A stretch of DNA of 64,000 nt from Dokdonella fugitiva (lineage in GTDB: Bacteria > Pseudomonadota > Gammaproteobacteria > Xanthomonadales > Rhodanobacteraceae), in NCBI RefSeq assembly GCF_014138265.1, contig NZ_JACGXL010000001.1, forward strand, positions 1,062,525 to 1,126,524, given 5' to 3'. The first letter of the stretch is position 1, and each line of letters begins with the position of its first letter. This document shows, piece by piece, positions 3,844 through 19,963 of the stretch. The position numbers were made by a program, and so were the translations under genes. The notes below the pieces were generated by a model that made no database searches, had not been told where the DNA came from, and was given only the letters and a program-made list of their open reading frames with translations.

Positions 3844-4917
3844 TCAGTCCATTCCGGTGCGGAAGATCGTGTCGAACAGCGCACCGATGTCGCCCAAGCT
3901 CCGGTACGGCGCACTCGGATGCCCCTCGGCGTCGTGCCCACCGAAGCCGTCCGGTGCGAAGCCGAGCGCGGGCGACGTGCTCTTCAGGTGGAAATCGCCG
4001 CTCGCTGCATCGACGAACTGCGGATTGACGGAAATGACGCTGTTCTGCGACGACGGAGCGGCACCGTCGAGCGTACCGACGTCGTCGTAGTCGAGGTGCA
4101 CGTTCGAGTTGCCGAGGAACAGTCCCGCCTGCGTGTTTCCCCACAGGATGCTGTCGTCGACGCCGCAGCTGGAACCGCTCGCGCCCGCGACGCGAAGGCC
4201 GCCGACGCCGCCCGCGAGCGTGGTCGTGTTCTGCGCGACGGTCAGGTTGCCGATCGACGCGGGGCCACCCGCGATCACGCTGCCGGCGCCGAAGCCCGAG
4301 TCCGCGCTGTTGCCGATGACGAGGCTGTCGAGCACGAGCAGCAGGTCACCGGGGCCGCTCTGCACGAAGAGCCCGCCCGCCGTCGCGCTCGTATGGTTGT
4401 CGCGGATGATCAGGCCGTCGAGCGTGGCCTGCGAATCGTCGCCGGCGAGCCGGTTCGCGCTGATGCCCGCTCCCGCCTGGTCGCTCTCGCCGTTGCGCGC
4501 GGTGAACCAGGCGAGGTCGATCGGACCGTTGGTGCTGTGCACCTCGAGCACCGCGGTCGCGTGATCGCCGTCGAGGATCGACTGGCGCGGATCGCGGGAC
4601 GTCGCGTTGCAGTTGGCATCGTAGCCGCCGAACAGGTCGAAGTGGCGCGACGACGAGCCGTGGTAAAGGAACGGCCCATGGGCCGTGGCTGCGCCGGTCT
4701 TGAACGTACCGGCGGTGAGAAGGATCACGTTGTCCTCGTCGTCGTGTGCGCCCCCGTCGGACGCCTGGGTGAGCGCATCCTGCAGCTGCGCGGCCGTGGA
4801 CACGCAGTAGAGATGCGCGCTCACGGGGCCGCCTGCGCCGATGCCGACGGCTGCGCCGAAGATCCAGCAAGCGTGCCTGTGCCGGCGTCGTGCCGGCGGC
4901 CATTTCGTCGATTTCAT
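3844..4917 (-). CDS. Secreted parallel beta-helix protein with IFRTGMD tail
   Basis: 357 residues. The ATG at 4917 has a GGGAG site 7 bases upstream and is preferred over the ATG 27 bases earlier. A basic n-region (ARRRHRH) and hydrophobic core give a signal peptide ending near VSA-H. The body has repeated Asn/Gly/Asp turns (ILDGDHA, LIIRDNHTS, LVIGNSADS, LTVAQNTT, SILWGNTQ) typical of pectate-lyase-like beta-helices with a choice-of-anchor Q-like C-terminal part (NPQFVDAASGDFHLKSTSPA). It ends FDTIFRTGMD, a variant of the tail on its convergent neighbour. Substrate or partner unknown. Confidence 0.78.
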   Translation of the reverse strand: MKSTKWPPARRRHRHACWIFGAAVGIGAGGPVSAHLYCVSTAAQLQDALTQASDGGAHDDEDNVILLTAGTFKTGAATAHGPFLYHGSSSRHFDLFGGYDANCNATSRDPRQSILDGDHATAVLEVHSTNGPIDLAWFTARNGESDQAGAGISANRLAGDDSQATLDGLIIRDNHTSATAGGLFVQSGPGDLLLVLDSLVIGNSADSGFGAGSVIAGGPASIGNLTVAQNTTTLAGGVGGLRVAGASGSSCGVDDSILWGNTQAGLFLGNSNVHLDYDDVGTLDGAAPSSQNSVISVNPQFVDAASGDFHLKSTSPALGFAPDGFGGHDAEGHPSAPYRSLGDIGALFDTIFRTGMD

Positions 4918-5054
4918 GCCGATGCTCCCGTTCTTGCACCGCACGCAGGCGGGCTCGATTCACTGGTACGACGAAACGACGGAAATCCGGGTGCCGACGA
5001 ATTCGCGCCGTACGCGCGGAAACCGTGCACGATCCGCATATGCGAAAAAATCTG

Positions 5055-5084
5055 TTGACAGAATTCAGGCGGGCGTGGTTTGCT
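5055..5084 (+). promoter_or_regulatory. Candidate ilv operon promoter
   Basis: A consensus -35 TTGACA at 5055-5060 is followed after 18 bases by TTTGCT (5079-5084), a weak -10. This would start transcription very near the leader-peptide ATG at 5091. The surrounding bases are AT-richer than the rest of the region. The -35 is convincing, the -10 is not. Confidence 0.5.
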
Positions 5085-5090
5085 CGAACC

Positions 5091-5234
5091 ATGACGCAGC
5101 GCAACAGCCAGCCGCTCCTCGACGACACGTCCTTCGACGTGCCGCGCGCGCTCGGCGGCCACATCGCTGCGGTGCTCGTCCTCGTACTCGTCCTTATTAC
5201 CGTGACCACCAGCGCGGGAATCGGGTTTGCGTAA
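5091..5234 (+). CDS. ilv leader peptide (BCAA attenuation)
   Basis: A 47-codon frame ending in TAA just before the attenuator hairpin. Residues 28-40 read VLVLVLVLITVTT: four Val-Leu pairs, then Ile, Thr, Val, Thr, Thr, i.e. codons for all three branched-chain amino acids and their precursor threonine (5172-5210). This is the signature of a ribosome-stalling leader, as known for ilv operons of enterobacteria and Xanthomonadales. No clear Shine-Dalgarno precedes the ATG; with a transcription start close to 5091 the message may be nearly leaderless, or an internal GTG may be used. Confidence 0.88.
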   Translation: MTQRNSQPLLDDTSFDVPRALGGHIAAVLVLVLVLITVTTSAGIGFA

Positions 5235-5304
5235 GTAACACCACCAAACCCAGGTCGAGAGAACCAAGACCCCGCGCCCGAAAAGGCGCGGGGTTTTTGT
5301 TTTT
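5212..5304 (+). promoter_or_regulatory. ilv attenuator: terminator and competing antiterminator
   Basis: The terminator is CCCCGCGCC (5270-5278), a six-base loop and GGCGCGGGG (5285-5293), followed by TTTTTGTTTTT (5294-5304). The competing pairing is GCGCGGG (5212-5218) with CCCGCGC (5271-5277). GCGCGGG starts right after the last control codon of the leader. A ribosome stalled on Val/Leu/Ile/Thr codons leaves it free to pair and stop terminator formation; a ribosome that runs to the stop codon at 5232 covers it. An upstream pairing GGGTTT (5223-5228) with AAACCC (5246-5251) could act as an additional sequester. Confidence 0.88.
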
Positions 5305-5340
5305 CGGGCCCTGGGTTTCCGCTTCGAGGAAACCAGGAAC

Positions 5341-7065
5341 GTGAAAAGCGACGCGATCAAGCAAGGCCCTTCCCGCGCACCCGCGCGCGCGATGCTGCGC
5401 GCGACCGGACTCGACGACGAGGCGATCGCCAGGCCGCTGGTCGCGGTCGTGCACACGTGGTCGGACGTCTCGCCGTGCAACCTGACCCTGCGCGACCTCG
5501 CGCAACACGCGCGCCAGGGCGTCGTCGCCGGCGGCGGCACGCCGATCGAGTTCAACACGATCGCGGTTACCGACGGCATCGCGATGGGCAGCGAGGGCAT
5601 GCGTGCCTCGCTCGTCTCGCGCGAGACGATCGCCGACTCGATCGAACTCGCGGTCGCCGGCCACTGCCTCGACGCGATGGTGCTGCTGGTCGGTTGCGAC
5701 AAGACCATACCCGCCGCGGCGATGGCCGCGGCGCGGCTCGACATCCCGTGCGTGATCCTCTACGGCGGCACGATCATGCCGGGCCACTGCCCTTCGCGCG
5801 ACAGCGACGCGACGCGCGCACTCACCGTGCAGGACGTGTTCGAGGCAGTCGGCGCACACGCCGCGGGCCGCATCGACGACGACGAACTGCACCGCATCGA
5901 GACCTGGGCCTGCCCCGGCGCGGGCGCGTGCGGCGGCCAGTTCACCGCCAACACGATGGCGATGGTGCTCACCTTCCTCGGCCTGTCGCCGCTGCAGGCG
6001 AACGACGTGCCCGCGCTGCACGCGGACAAGACCGAGGTCGCGTACGCGTGCGGCGAACTCGTCATGCAACGCCTGCGCGCGGGCGCGCCGACGCCGCGCG
6101 AACTGATCACGCCCGCTTCGTTGCGCAACGCGGCGCGCGCGGTGTCGGCCACCGCAGGCTCGACCAACGCGGCGCTGCACCTGCTCGCGATCGCGCACGA
6201 AGCGGGCGTGCCGTTCGACCTCGAGGAGTTCGAGCGCGCCGCGCGCACGCCGGTGATCGCCGACCTCAAGCCCGGCGGCCGCTACACGGCGGCCGAACTG
6301 TTCGCGTTCGGCGGCAGCGCGCTCGTCGCGCGCGAGTTGCGCATCGCCGGCCTGCTCGACGATATCCCGACGGTCACCGGCCGTTCGCTGTTCACCGAAC
6401 TCGATGCGTGGCGCGACCGCGGCGGAGCGGCCGCCGCGCAGGACGCCGTGCGCCCGGTGGCCGATCCGCTCAAGCCGCGCGGCGGCTGGTCGATCCTTTA
6501 CGGCGACCTCGCACCCGAGGGTTGCATCGTCAAGCTCGCCGGCCACGGTCGCGAACGGTTCGAAGGCCCGGCGCGCGTGTTCGATTCCGAGGAAGCCGCT
6601 TTCGCCGCGGTGCAGTCGCGCGCGATCCGCGCCGGCGACGTCGTCGTGATCCGCTTCGAAGGTCCGGCCGGCGGTCCCGGCATGCGCGAGATGCTCGCGG
6701 TCACCGCTGCGCTCGTCGGCCAGGGCCTCGGCAACGACGTCGCGCTCGTCACCGACGGCCGCTTCAGCGGCGCGACGCACGGATTCATGGTCGGCCACGT
6801 CGCGCCGGAAGCCGCGCGCGGTGGTCCGCTCGCGCGCCTGCGCGACGGCGACCGCATCCGCATCGACGTCGCCACGCGGCGCATGGACGTCGACGCCGAT
6901 CTCGCGCGACGCGCGCCGCGCCGCATCCCGCCGCGCGTGACGACCGGCGTGCTCGCGCGCTATGCGCGCGACGTCGGTTCGTCCGCGCGCGGTGCGGTCA
7001 CCGCGCCCGGGCCGCTCGACGCACCGAGAAGCATCGCAGCCACCTTCGTCGCGGAACCCGCCTGA
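5341..7065 (+). CDS. ilvD: Dihydroxy-acid dehydratase
   Basis: 574 residues from a GTG start 36 bases after the attenuator T run. It dehydrates 2,3-dihydroxy acids to the 2-oxo acids for valine and isoleucine. The iron-sulfur cysteines are at Cys46 (SPCNLTLR), Cys119 (VGCDKT) and Cys197 ([12 protein letters not shown]), the pattern of IlvD/Edd enzymes; the C-terminal [11 protein letters not shown] motif is also present. A hairpin at 5311-5336 overlaps the ribosome binding region. It is the first structural gene of the BCAA operon. Confidence 0.96.
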
Positions 7066-7086
7066 ACTCATTGATGGATCAATGCA

Positions 7087-7140
7087 GGAGCGGCTTCAGC
7101 CGCGATCGTCCGACGAAAGCATCGCGGCTGAAGCCGCTCC
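7087..7140. repeat. REP-like inverted repeat between ilvD and ilvC
   Basis: Perfect 20-base arms, GGAGCGGCTTCAGCCGCGAT at 7087-7106 and its complement at 7121-7140, around a 14-base loop. Related elements with the same GGAGCG...GCGATGC logic occur at 10251, 16970 and 25514. Inside a polycistronic message such a hairpin could stabilise the upstream segment or lower downstream expression. Confidence 0.85.
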
Positions 7141-7189
7141 ACGAATACACCGCCACGACATTCCCTGTCTCGACCACGAGGACCGCACC

Positions 7190-8193
<1,004 letters not shown>

Positions 8194-8194
<1 letters not shown>

Positions 8195-10011
8195 TGAGCC
8201 CGCCCGGGCGGCCCCCGCACGCCGGCGTGGACGTGCACGCACCGTCCGCCGCGCGTGCGCGCAACGGCGCGCGCTGGCTCGTCGACGCGCTCGTCGCGGA
8301 AGGCGTCGACACGCTGTTCGGCTATCCCGGCGGCGCGATCATGCCGTTCTACGACGCGCTGCACGGCGCGCCGTTGCGCCACGTGCTCGTGCGCCATGAG
8401 CAGGGCGCCGCATTCGCCGCGAATGGCTATGCACGCGCGAGCGGCCGCGTCGGCGTCTGCGTCGCGACATCCGGCCCGGGCGCGTCGAACCTCGTCACCG
8501 GCATCGCCGACGCGATGCTCGACTCGGTGCCGCTCGTCGTCATCACCGGCCAGGTCGCGACCACGCTGATGGGCACCGACGCGTTCCAGGAGCTGGACGT
8601 GTTCGGCATGACGATGCCGATGGTCAAGCACAGCTTCCTCGCGCGCCGCGCCGAGGACCTGCCGCGCATCGTCGGCGAGGCGTTCCGCATCGCGCGCACG
8701 GGTCGGCCGGGACCGGTGCTCATCGACCTGCCCAAGGACGTGCAGGTCGCACCCGCCGAGCACCTGCCCGCGCACGCGCGGTCGCCCGTCGATGCCGTGC
8801 CGCGGCCACCCGACGCCTCGCTGCACGAAGCGCTCGCGCTGATCTCGCAGGCGCGGCGCCCGGTCGCCTACGGCGGCGGCGGCATCGTGCTCGCCGACGC
8901 GGTGGCCGACTTCCGCACCTTCGTCGACGCGACGCAGATGCCGACCGTGCTCACGCTCAAGGGACTCGGCGCGCTGCCGTCGGAGCACCCGCTCAACCTC
9001 GGCATGCTCGGCATGCACGGCAGTCGCGCAGCGAACACGGCCGTGCAGGAATGCGACGTGCTGGTCGTCGTCGGCGCGCGCTTCGACGACCGCGCGACCG
9101 GCAAGCTCGCCGAGTTCGCGCCGCAGGCGCGCGTCGTGCACATGGATTTCGACGCGAGCGAGATCGGCAAGCTGCGCCGCGCCGACGCCGGCGTGCGCGG
9201 CGACCTGCGCCGCACGCTCGCCGCGTTGACCCTGCCGTGCGCCGCGCACCTGCACGCACGCCACGGCGCGGCGCGGCGGCAATGGCGCGCGGCGTGCCAG
9301 CAGCGCGCGCATGCGCATGCCGCGCGCTACGACGCACCCGGCGACGCCGTGCACGCGCCGACCCTGCTGCGACGCCTGTCCGCGCTCGCGCCCGCGGCGA
9401 TCGTCGCCTGCGACGTCGGCCAGCACCAGATGTGGGTCGCGCAGCACTGGCGCTTCGACGACCCCCGCAAGCACCTCACGAGCGGCGCGCTCGGCGCGAT
9501 GGGCTTCGGGCTGCCGGCCGCGATCGGCGCGCAAATGCAGGATCCGCGGGCGCAGGTGATCTGCGTCAGCGGCGACGGCTCGTTCCTCATGAACGTGCAG
9601 GAACTCGCGACGCTGCGCCGCTACGACCTGCCGGTGAAGATCGTCCTGCTCGACAACCAGGCGCTCGGCATGGTGCGGCAGTGGCAGGAGCTGTTCTTCG
9701 AGCGCCGCTACAGCGAGATCGACCTGTCCGACAACCCGGACTTCGTCGCGATCGCGCGTGCGTTCGGCATAGAGGCACTGCACGTCGAGCGCGCCGCCGA
9801 CGTCGATCATGCGCTCGACGCGCTGCTCGCCGCGCGCGGTCCCGCCCTGCTGCACGTCGCAATCGACACCGCCGCCAACGTCTGGCCGCTCGTGCCGCCG
9901 AACCACAGCAACGCGCAGATGCTCGACGCCGACGACGTCGCCTCGCTGCCGCTCGCCATGCCCGAATCCGCCACGCCGCCACCGGAGAAGCCCCATGCGC
10001 TACCAGCTTGA
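8194..10011 (+). CDS. ilvG: Acetolactate synthase large subunit
   Basis: 605 residues with the three domains of ThDP-dependent acetohydroxyacid synthases. The catalytic glutamate is Glu69 (VRHEQGA), following the FGYPGGA motif; the C-terminal ThDP site is GDGSFLMNVQEL...LLDNQALGM at about 455-485. It condenses pyruvate with pyruvate or 2-oxobutyrate. Its last 17 bases overlap the small-subunit gene. Because the partner is a short IlvM-type subunit, ilvG is the better name, though ilvB is commonly used. The N-terminal ~20 residues are Pro/Ala-rich and may not be essential. Confidence 0.94.
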
Positions 10012-10228
10012 CCTCACCCTGCGACACGCCGAAGGCGCGCTCGCGCGCGTGCTCGGCGCGACCGAGCGCCGCGGTTTCCGCCCGCTGTCCGTCGACGGCG
10101 AAGCGCAGCCCGATGGCGATCGCTGGCACCTGCGCATCACGGTCGAAGGCGAGCGCGGCGAGCAGGTGCTCGAAGGACAGCTCGCCAAACTGTACGACTG
10201 CCTCGCAGTGCAGGTGTCGCCGTGCTGA
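9995..10228 (+). CDS. ilvM: Acetolactate synthase small subunit, ACT domain
   Basis: 77 residues forming a single ACT domain (YQLDLTLRHAEGALARVLGATERRGFRPLSV...LYDCLAVQV). This is the IlvM length; the longer valine-sensitive IlvN/IlvH subunits have a second domain that is absent here. It starts inside the end of the large-subunit gene, so the two are translationally coupled. It regulates and stabilises the large subunit. Confidence 0.9.
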   Translation: MRYQLDLTLRHAEGALARVLGATERRGFRPLSVDGEAQPDGDRWHLRITVEGERGEQVLEGQLAKLYDCLAVQVSPC

Positions 10229-10250
10229 CCCGCGGCGAGGCGAGTGTCCC

Positions 10251-10319
10251 TGTGGGAGCGCCGGAAGGCGCGATGCTTTCGCCCGACCCAGGCGCATCGC
10301 GGCTTCCGCCGCTCCCACA
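10251..10319. repeat. REP-like inverted repeat between ilvM and ilvE
   Basis: Arms 10252-10276 and 10294-10318 (starting GTGGGAGCGCCGGAAGGCG) match with two mismatches in 25 bases. It is nearly identical to the copy at 25514-25587. The element is wholly contained in the open frame 5' of the conserved ilvE region, so it is either untranslated or encodes a non-conserved N-terminal extension. Confidence 0.85.
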
Positions 10320-10338
10320 AGAGCAGCGACGCGCACGC

Positions 10339-11187
10339 GTGTGGTTCGATGGAGAACTCGTCGACCCCGACGACGCTCGCGTCGGCCTCACGACCCACGC
10401 GCTACACTACGGCAGCGGCGTGTTCGAAGGCATCCGCGCCTACGCGACGCGCGACGGCGCGGCGGTGTTCCGCCTCGCCGACCATCTCGAGCGCATGCGC
10501 AAGGGCGCCGCGCTGCTCGGCATTGCATTCGACGCGGCAATCGCGACCGACGCGATCCTCGCGACGCTGCGCGCGAACCGCCAGCGCGACGCCTACGTGC
10601 GCCCGCTCGCCTGGGTCGGCGCCGGCGGCTTCGGCCTCGACGTCGCCGACCACGCGCAGCACCTCATGGTCGCGACGACGCCGACGACCGTGCACCTCGG
10701 CGGCGTGCGTACGCGGCTCGGCGTGTCGCCCTGGCGGCGCAATCCCGCGCGTTCGCTGCCGCCGCTCAAGCTCTGCGGCGCGTACGTCAACTCGATTCTC
10801 GCCAAGCGCGAGGCGAAGTCGCGCGGCTACGACGAGGCGCTGTTCGTCGACGACGACGGCTTCGTGGTCGAATGCACGGGTGCGAACGTGTTCGCGGTCA
10901 GCGGCGACCGCATCGTCGCGATCGAGCACGCGGATGCGCTGCCCGGCATCACGCGCGACACGCTCGTCGCGCTGTCCGGCGCCGAATGCCGTGCGATGAG
11001 CCTTGCCGAACTGCGCGACGCCGACGAGGTGTTCGTCTGCGGCACGGCCGCCGAAGTCGCGCCGATCGCTTCGCTCGAAGGACGCGAGTACGGTGCCGGG
11101 CCGGTCGCGCGCGAACTCGCTGCGCTGTACGCGCGCGTCGTGCGCGGCGACGCGGCCGCGCCGTCGGCGTGGCTGACGGCCGCCTGA
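10339..11187 (+). CDS. ilvE: Branched-chain amino acid aminotransferase
   Basis: 282 residues from the GTG at 10339, where homology starts ([32 protein letters not shown]), the usual N-terminus of class IV BCAA transaminases. A GTG at 10222 would add 39 residues, but these would be encoded by the REP element and look non-native. PLP-related motifs include [14 protein letters not shown] and ECTGANVF. It performs the last amino transfer to Val, Leu and Ile. No good ribosome binding site precedes 10339, so the exact start is uncertain. Confidence 0.9.
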
Positions 11188-11189
11188 CG

Positions 11190-12271
11190 ATGGACACGAT
11201 CGAGCCCGAGGTACGCGCGGTCGGCTTCGCCGACGTGCTCGTCGCGCAGGCGCGCCTGCGCGCGCACCTCGTGCCGACACCGGTCCATCACGCCGCGCGC
11301 TTCGGCTGCTGGCTCAAGCTCGAGAACCTGCAGCGCACCGGCTCGTACAAGGTGCGCGGGGCGCTCAACGCATTGCTCGCCGCGCGCGAACGCGGCGACC
11401 GCCGCGCGATCGTCGCTGCCTCCGCCGGCAACCATGCGCAGGGTCTCGCCTGGGCCGCCTGGCGCCTCGGCGTGCGCGCGATCACCGTGATGCCGCGCTC
11501 CGCGCCGGCGACGAAGGTCGCCGGCGTCGCCCACTGGGGCGCGACCGTACGCCTGCACGGCGACACCTACGACGAAACCAAGGCGTTCGCGGCTGCGCTC
11601 GCGGCGCAGCACGACTGGCGCCTGCTGCCCGCGTTCGACGACCCGGACGTGATCGCCGGACAGGGCACGGTCGGCCTCGAGCTCGCCGCGCTCGCGCCCG
11701 ACGTCGTGCTCGTGCCGATCGGCGGCGGCGGCCTCGCCGCCGGCGTCGCACTGGCGCTGAAATCGCTGCGCGGCGCCCGCGCGCGCCGCGTGCGGGTGAT
11801 CGGCGCGCAGGTCGAAGGCGCCGACGCGATGGCGCGCGTGCTGCGCGGCGAGGATGCCGCGCGCGATCCCGCGCCGACGCTCGCCGACGGCGTGCGCGTG
11901 AAGGAACCGGGCCGGCTGACCCGGCGCGTGCTCGCCGAACTGCTCGACGACCTCGTCATCGTGCGCGAAGCCGAACTGCGCGAGACCCTCGTGCGCCTCG
12001 CGCTCGAGGAGCACGTGATCGCCGAAGGCGCGGGCGCGCTCGCGCTCGCCGCAGGCCGCCGCGTCGCCGGGCGCCGCAAGTGCGCGGTCGTCTCCGGCGG
12101 CAACGTCGACGCCGCCGTGCTCGCGCGCCTGCTCGCCGACGTACGGCCGCGTCCGCCCCGCCGCCCGCGCCGGCGTGCGCGCGAAGGCGACGGCGAGGCC
12201 GCGCCGGCCGCCGTATCCCCCGCCTTTCACCCATCCGTGTCCACTCGTCCCCTGCCCGAGGAAACCCCCGC

Positions 12272-12275
<4 letters not shown>
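11190..12275 (+). CDS. ilvA: Threonine dehydratase, catalytic domain only
   Basis: 361 residues. The PLP lysine motif [11 protein letters not shown], the ASAGNHAQG loop and the phosphate-binding GGGGLAAG glycines are present. It makes 2-oxobutyrate for isoleucine. After about residue 320 the chain becomes Pro/Arg-rich ([12 protein letters not shown]) and there is no C-terminal ACT-type regulatory domain as in biosynthetic E. coli IlvA; by length it resembles TdcB-like dehydratases. Its place in the operon argues for a biosynthetic role. The stop overlaps the leuA ATG. Confidence 0.9.
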
Positions 12276-13819
<1,544 letters not shown>

Positions 13820-13843
13820 CCCCCTCCCCATCCGACCAAGACC

Positions 13844-15256
13844 ATGCAACCGAGAACCCTGTTCGACAAGTTGTGGGACGCGCATGTCGTCGTCCCGGAA
13901 ACCGACGCGGCGCCCGCGACGCTCTACGTCGACCTGCACCTCGTGCACGAAGTCACCTCTCCGCAGGCGTTCGCCGAGCTCGACGCGCGCGGGCTCTCCG
14001 TGCGTCGCCCCGAGCGCACCAAGGCGACGCTCGATCACTCGACGCCGACCCTGCCCGCCGGCGCGGACGGCCGGCTGCCGTACGCGAGCGCCGACGCGCA
14101 GGCGCAGGTCGAGGCGCTGCGCCGCAACGCCGCGAAGCACGCGATCGAGCTGTTCGACTTCGACGGCGGCGAGCGCGGCATCGTGCACGTCGTCGGCCCG
14201 GAGCTCGGCCTCACGCTGCCCGGCACGACGATCGTCTGCGGCGACAGCCACACCGCGACGCACGGTGCGTTCGGCGCGCTCGCGTTCGGCATCGGCACGA
14301 GCGAAGTCGCGCACGTGCTCGCGACGCAATGCCTGCTGCAGCGCAAGCCGAAGTCGCTCGCGATCACCGTCGAGGGTGAGTTCGGCCCGGGCGTCGGTGC
14401 GAAGGACCTGATCCTGCACGTGATCGGCGTGATCGGCGTCAACGGCGGCACCGGCCACGTGATCGAGTACCGCGGCAGTGCGATCCGCGCGCTGTCGATG
14501 GAACAGCGCATGACCGTCTGCAACATGTCGATCGAAGCCGGCGCACGTGCGGGCCTGGTCGCACCCGACGAGATCACGTTCGACTATCTCGCGCGCACGC
14601 CGCGTGCACCGCGCGGCGATGCGTTCGCGCGCGCGGTCGCGCACTGGCGATCGTTCGCCGGCGATCCCGGCGCACGCCACGACGCCGAGGTGCGCATCGA
14701 CGCGCGCGACGTACGGCCGACCGTGACCTGGGGCACGCATCCTGGCCAGGTCGCGGCGATCGACGCGCGCATCCCGCCGGCCGCCGACGCCGACACGGCC
14801 AAGGCGCGCGACTACATGGGCTGGAGCGAAGGCGCCGCGGTGGCGGGCCGCGCGGTCGACGTCGTCTTCGTCGGCAGCTGCACGAACGCGCGCATCGGCG
14901 ACCTGCGCGAGGTCGCGCGTGTGCTGCGCGATCGCCGCGTGCACCCGCGCGTGCGCATGCTCGTCGTTCCGGGCTCCGAGCGCGTCAAGCGTGCGGCCGA
15001 GGACGAGGGCATCGATCGCATCGTGCGCGCGGCAGGCGCCGAGTGGCGCGAACCCGGCTGCTCGATGTGCATCGCGATGAACGGCGATCTCGTCGCGGCC
15101 GGCCAACTCGCGGTGTCGACGAGCAATCGCAACTTCGAGGGCCGCCAGGGCAAGGGCGCGCGCACCGTGCTCGCCTCGCCGCTGACCGCCGCGGTGTGCG
15201 CGGTCACCGGCGAAATCACCGACCCGCGCGCGTTCCTGTCGACGGAGGCCGCATGA
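13844..15256 (+). CDS. leuC: 3-Isopropylmalate dehydratase large subunit
   Basis: 470 residues, aconitase superfamily. Start motif [16 protein letters not shown] is typical. Cysteines for the [4Fe-4S] cluster are in VGSCTNARI (about 346) and GCSMC (about 406-409); [22 protein letters not shown] is also conserved. It works with LeuD to isomerise isopropylmalate. It is separated from leuA by 24 bases; its stop overlaps the leuD ATG. Confidence 0.97.
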
Positions 15257-15882
15257 GCACGCCCGCGTCCTCCTCGCCTGCGCGCGATGCCGTGCGCTTC
15301 AGCTGGCGCAGTGTCGTGCTGCCCCAGCGCAACATCGACACCGACCAGATCATCCCCGCACGCTTCCTCACCACGACCGAACGGCACGGACTCGGCCGGC
15401 ATGCGTTCGCCGACTGGCGCACGCGCGCTGACGGTTCGCCGAATCCCGACTTCCCGTTCGGCCGTGCCGAGAACGCAGGCGCCGCGATCCTCGTGGCGGG
15501 CCGCAACTTCGGCTGCGGATCGTCGCGCGAGCACGCGCCGTGGGCGCTCGCCGATCTCGGCCTGCGCGCGATCGTCAGCAGCGAGATCGCCGACATCTTC
15601 CGCAGCAATGCGCTGAAGAACGGCCTGCTGCCGATCGTGCTCGACGACACGATCGTCGACGAACTGCTCGCGCGGCCCGGCCTCGAACTCGTCGTCGACA
15701 TCGCCGCCTGCACGCTCGCGCTGCCCGACGGACGTACGTTCGCGTTCCCGCTCGACGCGTTCGCGCGCACCTGCCTGCTCGAAGGCGTCGACACGCTCGG
15801 CTACCTGCTGCGCCAGGACGCCGCGATCACCGCTTACGAATCCCGCCTTCCCGCCCACGAGGAATCCACTCATGCACGCTGA
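15253..15882 (+). CDS. leuD: 3-Isopropylmalate dehydratase small subunit
   Basis: 209 residues of the swivel-domain type, with [13 protein letters not shown], the substrate-binding loop [16 protein letters not shown] and the family-typical [12 protein letters not shown]. It completes the LeuCD heterodimer. The ATG overlaps the leuC stop and the last 11 bases overlap leuB. Confidence 0.97.
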
Positions 15883-16957
15883 CATCGTCGTACTGCCCGG
15901 GGACGGCATCGGGCCCGAGGTGACCGCTGCCGCCGTCGCGGTGCTGCGCGCGGTCGCGCGCGTGCACGGCCATCGCTTCGACCTGCACGAGCATGCGATC
16001 GGCGGCGCCGCGATCGACGCGAGCGGCGAACCGCTGCCGGCGGCGACGCTCGCCGCGTGCCGCGCCGCCGACGCCGTGCTGCTCGGCGCGGTCGGCGGAC
16101 CGAAGTGGTCCGATCCGAATGCGAAGGTGCGTCCCGAACAGGGCCTGCTCGCACTGCGCAAGGGGCTCGGCCTCTACGCGAACCTGCGTCCGGTGCAGCC
16201 GCACGCGGCGACGCTCGGCGCGGCGCCGATCAAGCCGCACCTGCTCGCCGGCGTCGATCTCGTCGTCGTGCGCGAGCTCACCGGCGGCATCTACTTCGGC
16301 GACAAGACGCGTGACGGCGACGGCGCGAGCGACCTGTGTGCATACAGCGTCGCCGAGATCGAGCGCGTCGTGCGGCGCGCGTGCGCGCTCGCGCGGACGC
16401 GGCGCCGGCACGTGACGTCGGTCGACAAGGCGAACGTGCTCGAGACCTCGCGCCTGTGGCGCGACGTCGCCACGCGCGTCGCGCGCGAGGAGTTCCCCGA
16501 CGTGACGCTCGAGCACCAGCTGGTCGACTCGATGGCGATGCACCTGCTCGCCAAGCCGCGCGCGTTCGATGTCGTCGTCACCGAGAACATGTTCGGCGAC
16601 ATCCTCACCGACGAGGCGTCGATGCTCGCCGGCTCGATGGGACTGCTGCCGTCGGCCTCGCTCGGCGACGGACGCGCGGGACTGTACGAACCGATCCACG
16701 GTTCGGCGCCCGACATCGCCGGTCGCGGCATCGCCAACCCGGTCGGCGCGATCCTCAGCGCGGCACTGCTGTTGCGCCACTCGCTCGGGCTCGACGAGGA
16801 AGGCGCGCGCATCGAGCGCGCGGTGTCCGACGCGCTCGATGCCGGCGTGTTCACTGCCGACCTGTCACCCTATCGCGCAGCGACGACGGCGGAGATGACC
16901 GCAGCGGTGATCGACCGGCTCGTCGCGCCGTGCGCGGTGGTCGACCTGCGCGACTGA
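15872..16957 (+). CDS. leuB: 3-Isopropylmalate dehydrogenase
   Basis: 361 residues. NAD and substrate motifs: [10 protein letters not shown] at the N-terminus, [52 protein letters not shown] and the GSAPDIAG loop. It oxidises and decarboxylates 3-isopropylmalate to 2-oxoisocaproate, the last leucine-specific step before IlvE. It is the last gene of the operon and is followed by a degenerate REP element. Confidence 0.97.
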
Positions 16958-17971: not shown

Positions 17972-19963
17972 ATGATCCCCGAACTCGGCCAATTCGCCCT
18001 GATCCTCGCCTTGCTGCTCTCGGCGGCGCAGTGCGTGCTGCCGATCCTCGGCGCACAGCTTCGCAACCGCGCGCTGATCGCGGTCGCGCGGCCCGCGGTC
18101 GCCGGCCAGGCGGTGTTCGTCGGGCTCGCGTTCGCGATCCTCACGTTCGCGTTCGTCACGCAGGACTTCTCGGTCGCCTACGTCGCGCAGAACTCGAACT
18201 CGGTGCTGCCGTGGTACTACCGCTTCACGGCGGTGTGGGGCGCGCACGAGGGCTCGATGCTGTTGTGGGTGCTGGTCCTCAACCTCTGGACCGTCGCGGT
18301 CGCCGCGTTCAGCCGCCGCCTGCCCGACGACTTCATCGCCCGCGTGCTCGGCGTGCTCGGCTTCATCAGCTTCGGCTTCCTGCTGTTCATGGTGCTGACG
18401 TCGAACCCGTTCCTGCGCGAACTGCCGATGCCGGCCGACGGCAACGACCTCAACCCGGTGTTGCAGGATCCCGGCATGATCGTGCACCCGCCGATGCTCT
18501 ACATGGGCTTCGTCGGCTTCTCGGTCGCCTTCGCGTTCGCGATCGCGGCGCTGCTCGGCGGCAACCTCGACGTCGCCTGGGTGCGCTGGGCACGTCCGTG
18601 GACGAACGTCGCGTGGTCGTTCCTCACGCTCGGCATCGCGCTCGGCAGCTGGTGGGCGTACTACGAACTCGGCTGGGGCGGCTGGTGGTTCTGGGATCCG
18701 GTGGAGAACTCCTCGTTCATGCCGTGGCTGGTCGGCACCGCGCTCATCCATTCGCAGGCGGTGACCGAGAAGCGCGGTTCGTTCCGCGCATGGACGCTGC
18801 TGCTCGCGATCTTCGCGTTCTCGCTGTCGCTGCTCGGCACCTTCCTCGTGCGCTCGGGCGTGCTCACGAGCGTGCATTCGTTCGCGGCGGACCCGAAGCG
18901 CGGCCTGTTCATCCTCTCGTTCCTCGCGATCGTGATCGGCGGTTCGCTGCTGCTGTACGCGCTGCGCGCGCCGAAGGTCGCCGGAGGCGAACCGTTCGCC
19001 GCGGCGTCACGCGAGACCCTGCTGCTCGTCAACAACCTCATGTTCACGGTCGCCGCGGCGATGGTGCTGCTCGGCACGCTGTTCCCGATGATCGGCGACG
19101 CGTTCGACCTCGGTCGCATCTCGGTCGGCCCGCCCTACTTCGGCTTCATGTTCGTGCTGCTCATGCTGCCGGTCGTGCTGCTGTTGCCGTTCGGGCCGTT
19201 CGTGAAATGGCGCAGCGGCGATTTCAAGGCCGCGTTCAGGCACCTGCGCCCCGTGCTGTTGCTGCCGTTCGCGCTTCTTCTCGCCGCATGGCTGCGCGGC
19301 GGCGATCTTTCCGCGTGGGGTCGCGCCTACTGGGGCGTCGCCGCGTCGCTCTGGGTCGGTCTGGGCATCGTGCTGTACGCGCTGCACCGCTGGCGCACCT
19401 TGCCGCGTGGTCGGCGCTACACGCCGGAAATGCTCGGCATGATCTGCGCGCACTTCGGCGTCGCACTGTTCCTTGCCGGCGTGCTCGTCGTCGAGGCGAC
19501 CAGCGTCGAGAAGGACGTGCGCCTCGCGCCGAACCAGAGCGTGACGATCGGCACGCTCGCGTTCCGCTTCGACGGCGTGAAGGAGGCGCAAGGCCCGAAC
19601 TTCCGCGCGCAACAGGGCACGGTCAGCGTGCTCGAAGGCGACCGGGTCGTCGCGACGTTGCAGCCGCAGAAGCGCGTCTACGCGCGCAACCAGCAACCGC
19701 AGACCGAGTCGGCGATCGATCCCGGCCTGTTCCGCGACATCTACGTCGCGCTCGGCGAACCGGTCGGCGACGACGGCGCCTGGGCCGTGCGCGTCTACGT
19801 GAAACCGTTCGTGCGCTGGATCTGGCTCGGCGCGCTGTTCATGATGTTCGGAGGCCTGCTCGCCGCCGCCGACCGCCGCTTCCGCCGCCTGCCCGAAGGC
19901 GCGCCGGCGCCTGCCGACGCGAACACGACGACCGCGACGGGTGTCGCCGGAGCGACCGCATGA
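17972..19963 (+). CDS. ccmF: CcmF, cytochrome c heme lyase core subunit
   Basis: 663 residues with about 14-15 membrane segments. The WWD domain (YELGWGGWWFWDPVENSSFMPW) is at about residues 230-252 and family histidines lie in AHEGSMLLWV, IVHPPMLYMG and ALIHSQ. CcmF receives heme from CcmE and attaches it to apocytochrome c with CcmHI. It starts the second ccm block, separated from ccmE. The stop overlaps ccmG. Confidence 0.97.
   Translation: MIPELGQFALILALLLSAAQCVLPILGAQLRNRALIAVARPAVAGQAVFVGLAFAILTFAFVTQDFSVAYVAQNSNSVLPWYYRFTAVWGAHEGSMLLWVLVLNLWTVAVAAFSRRLPDDFIARVLGVLGFISFGFLLFMVLTSNPFLRELPMPADGNDLNPVLQDPGMIVHPPMLYMGFVGFSVAFAFAIAALLGGNLDVAWVRWARPWTNVAWSFLTLGIALGSWWAYYELGWGGWWFWDPVENSSFMPWLVGTALIHSQAVTEKRGSFRAWTLLLAIFAFSLSLLGTFLVRSGVLTSVHSFAADPKRGLFILSFLAIVIGGSLLLYALRAPKVAGGEPFAAASRETLLLVNNLMFTVAAAMVLLGTLFPMIGDAFDLGRISVGPPYFGFMFVLLMLPVVLLLPFGPFVKWRSGDFKAAFRHLRPVLLLPFALLLAAWLRGGDLSAWGRAYWGVAASLWVGLGIVLYALHRWRTLPRGRRYTPEMLGMICAHFGVALFLAGVLVVEATSVEKDVRLAPNQSVTIGTLAFRFDGVKEAQGPNFRAQQGTVSVLEGDRVVATLQPQKRVYARNQQPQTESAIDPGLFRDIYVALGEPVGDDGAWAVRVYVKPFVRWIWLGALFMMFGGLLAAADRRFRRLPEGAPAPADANTTTATGVAGATA

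Follow-up and report, generated by a model that had tools for sequence, protein, structure and literature searches.

A ribosome-mediated attenuator of ilvDCGMEA-leuACDB in Dokdonella fugitiva, probably built on a leaderless message

How is a leader peptide translated when its open reading frame (ORF) has no ribosome binding site? The question is raised by the 64,000-nucleotide stretch of Dokdonella fugitiva DNA analyzed here (the window; contig NZ_JACGXL010000001.1), in which a short ORF lies upstream of genes for branched-chain amino acid (BCAA) synthesis. In the ilvGMEDA and leu attenuators of E. coli, BCAA genes follow a leader peptide that is enriched in the amino acids under control, and the antiterminator and terminator are mutually exclusive. 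In Gammaproteobacteria, an ilv attenuator usually has a normal 5′ UTR and is led by a Shine-Dalgarno site. We propose, with a probability of roughly 0.85, that the D. fugitiva leader is a ribosome-mediated transcription attenuator of ilvDCGMEA-leuACDB built on a leaderless message. The leaderless reading would explain the leader ORF without a ribosome site, because the message appears to start at the first codon of the peptide. What we infer in this scheme is where transcription starts, that the leader is translated, and that ribosomes stall and the operon is read through.

The genes downstream of the leader make the amino acids that it is proposed to sense. The first-pass annotation of this DNA had described a ten-gene operon; family matches bear out the gene content and the order ilvDCGMEA-leuACDB, and the contiguity of the ten genes suggests a single transcript. 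The features of the locus, together with a second leader from the same genome, are collected in Table 1.

Table 1. Positions and properties of the leader features and operon genes (window coordinates unless a locus is given).
Feature	Position	Strand	Remarks
-35 box TTGACA	5055-5060	+	begins 36 nt 5′ of the ATG
Probable -10 box TTTGCT	5079-5084	+	T-rich -13 to -8 block of aligned relatives; weak match to TATAAT
Leader peptide ORF	5091-5234	+	47 codons from ATG 5091; stop TAA 5232-5234
Control codons VLVLVLVLI(T)	5172-5201	+	conserved LVLVLI(T) core; non-preferred codons; stall folding calculation
Spacer codons Val-Thr-Thr	5202-5210	+	not conserved; stall at both Thr codons should mask the arm
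Antiterminator arm GCGCGGG	5212-5218	+	inside the ORF; 100% complementary to 5271-5277
Inner hairpin GGGTTTG/CAAACCC	5223-5251	+	extends the antiterminator in the Dokdonella fugitiva genome
Intrinsic terminator and T-run	5266-5305	+	stem 5266-5297, 13 pairs; arm 5271-5277 shared with the antiterminator
ilvD, first operon gene	5341-7065	+	GTG start, GAGGAAACCAGGAAC upstream; NF002068, E = 3.1e-213
ilvC, ilvG, ilvM, ilvE, ilvA, leuA, leuC, leuD, leuB	7160-16957	+	NCBIfam and Pfam matches; ilvC start approximate
thr leader	L291 / G000:C5:224345-224384	-	TTGACA 37 nt before the ATG

The leader ORF (5091-5231 without its stop codon) translates as MTQRNSQPLLDDTSFDVPRALGGHIAAVLVLVLVLITVTTSAGIGFA, and the run VLVLVLVLIT lies within its 47 codons. 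Homologous leaders were sought starting from IlvC and ilvD neighbors. They are found in Lysobacter, Luteimonas, Thermomonas, Stenotrophomonas, Xanthomonas, Pseudoxanthomonas, Rhodanobacter, Dyella and Luteibacter, as well as in other families. A covariance model of the core and terminator, built after aligning 26 leaders, matches 326 of the 399 genomes of the order and 88 of its 98 genera (E ≤ 0.01); among the matches listed, most have E <1e-8. Those matches that carry a frame rich in Ile, Leu, Val and Thr, 149 in all, were studied further. In 142 of them TTGACA, with at most one mismatch, lies 35-38 nt before an in-frame ATG, and the seven exceptions are four weak matches outside the order and three antisense matches. 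The antisense matches are artefacts. Outside the order, the covariance-model matches with an ILV frame (L172, L173, L175 and L062) lack the leaderless spacing, and most others are weak and often cover the terminator only. Made non-redundant, the 142 leaders with the TTGACA spacing leave 138.

All 138 have an open leader frame and keep the core. The comparison with other Xanthomonadales leaders, which had been suggested as a check, thus finds the LVLVLI(T) codons conserved, and the annotated leader with its Val, Leu, Ile and Thr codons is upheld. The peptide had also been called unusually long; at 47 codons it falls instead within the range of the group, 36-63 codons with a median of 45.

The promoter of the leader is held at a nearly fixed distance from the ATG. 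The hexamer TTGACA is exact at 35-38 nt in 131 of the 138 leaders, and TTGAC(A) is present in all of them; the distance from the start of the -35 box to the ATG is 37 nt in 75 leaders, 36 in 42, 38 in 14 and 35 in 7. In the whole genome from which the window comes, TTGACA-N29-32-ATG occurs at 11 sites, against 18 for the reversed pattern used as a control, so background does not explain its presence at the start of the leader. The probable -10 box of the window, TTTGCT, was not reported by a strict promoter scan because it lacks the A at position 2; a TG lies upstream of it at 5076-5077. A usual spacer, the -10 box and a further 6-7 nt place the expected transcription start at the A of the ATG. 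The RNA 5′ end is therefore predicted at 5091, or within about one base of it. Shine-Dalgarno-like 4-mers occur in only two of the 138 leaders, and the window leader has none. The first-pass annotation was right that no clear ribosome binding site is present; its view that this is unusual holds less well, since 136 relatives are likewise without one. The leader ORF is best read, from sequence comparison, as the beginning of a leaderless transcript, a trait that would be common to the entire order.

The second half of the attenuator lies at the end of the ORF. A single base, 5211, separates the last Thr codon (5208-5210) from the GCGCGGG arm, in agreement with the earlier placement of the arm two bases after the last control codon. 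Its exact complement, CCCGCGC at 5271-5277, falls within the terminator's 5′ arm, so that the exact pairing that had been claimed is confirmed as well. The terminator sits between the leader ORF and ilvD and has a calculated energy of -26.9 kcal/mol alone. The attenuator stretch folds better than 200 of 200 dinucleotide shuffles (z = -4.9).

In most relatives the arm is GGTGCGGG, where it encodes Gly-Ala-Gly. It is found in all three reading frames, in 108, 18 and 4 leaders (giving GAG, GSG, and VRD or ERD, for example), which argues that the RNA, not the peptide, is under selection. Among 31 distinct arm sets, the third position of the arm pairs as UA in 15, AU in 5 and CG in 4. The covariation score of the antiterminator is 0.174 versus 0.063 in shuffles, with none of 500 as high, although relatedness is not corrected for in the shuffles, and complementarity helped to locate the arms, which favors pairing in this score. 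The terminator stem likewise scores above all 500 of its shuffles, to which the same disregard of relatedness applies. No Rfam model reaches its gathering score on this stretch. The nearest models are Leu_leader (RF00512) and Thr_leader (RF00506); membership in the former, the best match, was rejected at 25.3 bits against a curated gathering score of 50.

The consequences of ribosome position were calculated by folding the RNA as it would be before the 3′ arm of the terminator exists, with the downstream edge of the ribosome assumed to lie 12 nt past the first base of the A-site codon. Stalls at the tested codons in the range V5172 to T5199 give the antiterminator a probability of 0.99-1.0. 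The value is 0.78 for a stall at V5202 and 0 for stalls at T5205 and T5208. A ribosome at the stop codon covers 5212-5218, and the terminator can then form. Without any ribosome the probability is 0.35.

These values fit the following scheme. RNA polymerase would start at the leader ATG, or within about one base of it, and a ribosome would bind the 5′ AUG itself, with no need of a Shine-Dalgarno site. A shortage of charged Val-, Leu- or Ile-tRNA would halt the ribosome within VLVLVLVLI(T), leaving 5212-5218 free to pair with 5271-5277 once the latter is transcribed; this pairing would block the terminator, and the operon would be read. When the tRNAs are charged, the ribosome would reach the stop codon and cover 5212-5218, the terminator stem would form, and transcription would end before ilvD. 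Conservation, covariation and the folding calculation together give good support to attenuation of the BCAA operon by a Val/Leu/Ile leader. The attenuator itself is genuine, conserved in most genomes of the order and conventional in principle; its predicted leaderless start is unusual and is shared across the order.

A classical attenuator, with a start further upstream, a normal 5′ UTR and a leader translated from an unrecognized ribosome site or an internal start, would be the expected form in Gammaproteobacteria, and the weak -10 box of the window might be taken in its favor. So might L173, an ilv leader outside the order, which has AGGAG before its ATG and shows that ilv attenuators are not leaderless in general. 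We nevertheless regard the classical arrangement as unlikely here. The constant placement of TTGAC(A) relative to the same ATG in 138 non-identical leaders would allow no UTR, provided that this promoter is used; Shine-Dalgarno-like bases are confined to two leaders; and the codons right after the ATG are conserved, which marks ATG 5091 as the real start. An internal or Shine-Dalgarno-led start was rejected on the absence of such sites and the conserved ATG-promoter spacing. It is less probable still that the 47-residue peptide is a functional small protein and that the terminator is coincidental or constitutive. The first residues are conserved (M-S/T/P-Q-R-N), and a leader peptide of Sinorhizobium, peTrpL, does act in trans (PMC10117765), but in 31 leaders of the Rhodanobacteraceae type codons 2-28 evolve nearly neutrally, with dN/dS ~0.93 compared with 0.31 for the remaining codons, and on this ground the functional peptide was discarded. 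Its conserved Gly-Ala-Gly end is dictated at the RNA level, because the same nucleotides sit in other frames in relatives, and the antiterminator covaries with the terminator.

Within the preferred reading, that of an attenuator on a leaderless message, threonine requires separate treatment. The first-pass annotation had the leader respond to Val, Leu, Ile and Thr alike. The predicted response to the three branched-chain amino acids stands, on conservation, covariation and folding; the threonine claim is probably wrong. Thr follows the LI of the core in 108 of 137 relatives and is the substrate of the product of ilvA, an operon gene, both of which speak for an equal role. In the folding calculation, however, a ribosome halted at T5205 or T5208 prevents the antiterminator and should therefore cause termination: read-through is expected from a shortage of Val, Leu or Ile, but not from a halt at the last two Thr codons. 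Neither of these codons is conserved, as the three residues beyond the post-LI position form a variable spacer in relatives (SPT, NG, EPT, QPT). Among the Thr codons only T5199 could contribute, and its codon, ACC, is an ordinary one, which the control codons for Ile, Val and Leu are not. Roughly one relative in five has no Thr at this position, with Ile in 16, Ser in 7 and another residue in the remainder. That threonine is sensed equally with Val, Leu and Ile is thus doubtful, and threonine as an equal control amino acid was set aside on the folding calculation and the unconserved codons.

The first five codons of the leader (5091-5105 in the window, and their equivalents) read M-T/S/P-Q-R-N, about ATGnCGCAGCGCAAC in nucleotides, and are conserved despite the near-neutrality of codons 2-28. 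They are perhaps a signal for leaderless initiation.

The control codons differ from those of the operon they precede. Ile is encoded by ATT in 89% of cases in the leaders versus 1% in the operon genes, and Val by GTA in 58% versus 1%; for Leu, CTT accounts for 41% versus 1%, and CTG for 6% versus 43%. An ilvC baseline drawn from loci L112-L140 was left out of this comparison because it combines both strands. At the Ile of the LI core, 136 of 137 leaders have ATT. In the window, 5172-5198 likewise holds ATT, GTA and CTT, synonyms seldom used by the genes of the operon, as do the equivalent segments of relatives. A single tRNA normally decodes both AUU and AUC, so tRNA identity would not explain the choice of AUU. 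It may be a tuning of stalling through wobble decoding, or an RNA signal.

A second amino-acid leader in the same genome has a similar start. It encodes 49 residues with TTSTTTTTSTTIVV and lies upstream of an aspartokinase-type thrA gene. A pattern search for thr leaders with ACCACCACC gave no matches because the Thr codons are mixed; anchoring on thrA succeeded, and 10 of the 13 Thr-rich leader candidates found in relatives in this way show the 35-38 nt spacing. An obvious terminator with a U-run was not found at the D. fugitiva thr leader, so its mechanism may differ. On balance, we lean slightly toward a general proposal for the order (Lysobacterales / Xanthomonadales), namely that its attenuators of amino-acid operons, including at least those of ilv and thr, are leaderless, that a ribosome on the 5′ AUG leaving RNA polymerase would set the coupling of the two without a ribosome binding site, and that the control codons are held to unusual synonyms.

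How does this leader compare with known systems? With the ilvGMEDA and leu attenuators of E. coli it shares the amino-acid-rich leader peptide, the mutually exclusive antiterminator and terminator, and the BCAA genes. It differs in its predicted lack of a 5′ UTR, in having no Shine-Dalgarno site, in placing the antiterminator arm within the ORF directly after the control codons, in gene order, and in matching no Rfam model at the gathering level. Leaderless leader peptides of amino-acid operons are reported from Streptomyces lividans, where they include ilvL, leuL and trpL, one of them upstream of ilvBHC (PMC8079986). That species belongs to the Actinobacteria and its IlvL has 13 residues with few control codons (PMC8079986); the likeness drawn here is one of description. 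In Sinorhizobium meliloti, the trpL/rnTrpL RNA begins with the AUG of the leader ORF, and its translation was seen by Ribo-seq (PMC10117765). Both are proteobacterial attenuators with RNA starting at the AUG, as predicted here, but that of S. meliloti concerns Trp, has a peptide of 14 residues and is alphaproteobacterial. The ilvBNC operon of Corynebacterium glutamicum is a further case of BCAA operon attenuation by competing hairpins, and differs in phylum, gene set and hairpins (PMC11857589). In the searchable literature, leaderless attenuators come from Actinobacteria and Rhizobia, and none was found for the ilv leader of this order; an earlier mention in Xanthomonadales is possible. The present reading predicts an RNA controlling branched-chain synthesis in hundreds of species, including Lysobacter, Stenotrophomonas, Xanthomonas and Rhodanobacter. 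With one RNA arm in three frames and a fixed promoter-to-AUG spacing, these leaders form a large natural series for leaderless translation-transcription coupling.

The origin of the operon in D. fugitiva is a separate matter. Operon and leader (5091-16957) lie inside a cytochrome c maturation cluster, between ccmBCDE (129-2389) and ccmF (17972-19963). The window IlvC is ~90% identical to members of family f2, which are Lysobacter- and Thermomonas-like, and near 71-74% identical to most of its own family, f1. In the IlvC tree, the window sequence and that of genome G015 fall inside an f2 clade (branch 100/100), whereas the congeners G002, G004, G005 and G010 group with f1. Since the grouping of IlvC is with the Lysobacteraceae and away from the family to which the genome belongs, operon and attenuator were probably acquired together from Lysobacteraceae by transfer. 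A genome of the same family but a different genus, G387 (L137/L278), has a Lysobacteraceae-type IlvC too, which suggests a second transfer. Between ccmE and the ilv leader, the window has a minus-strand ORF (3844-4944) with a sub-threshold DUF5123 match only; at this site G015 (L002) has instead a CcmE-like reading frame that ends directly before the leader.
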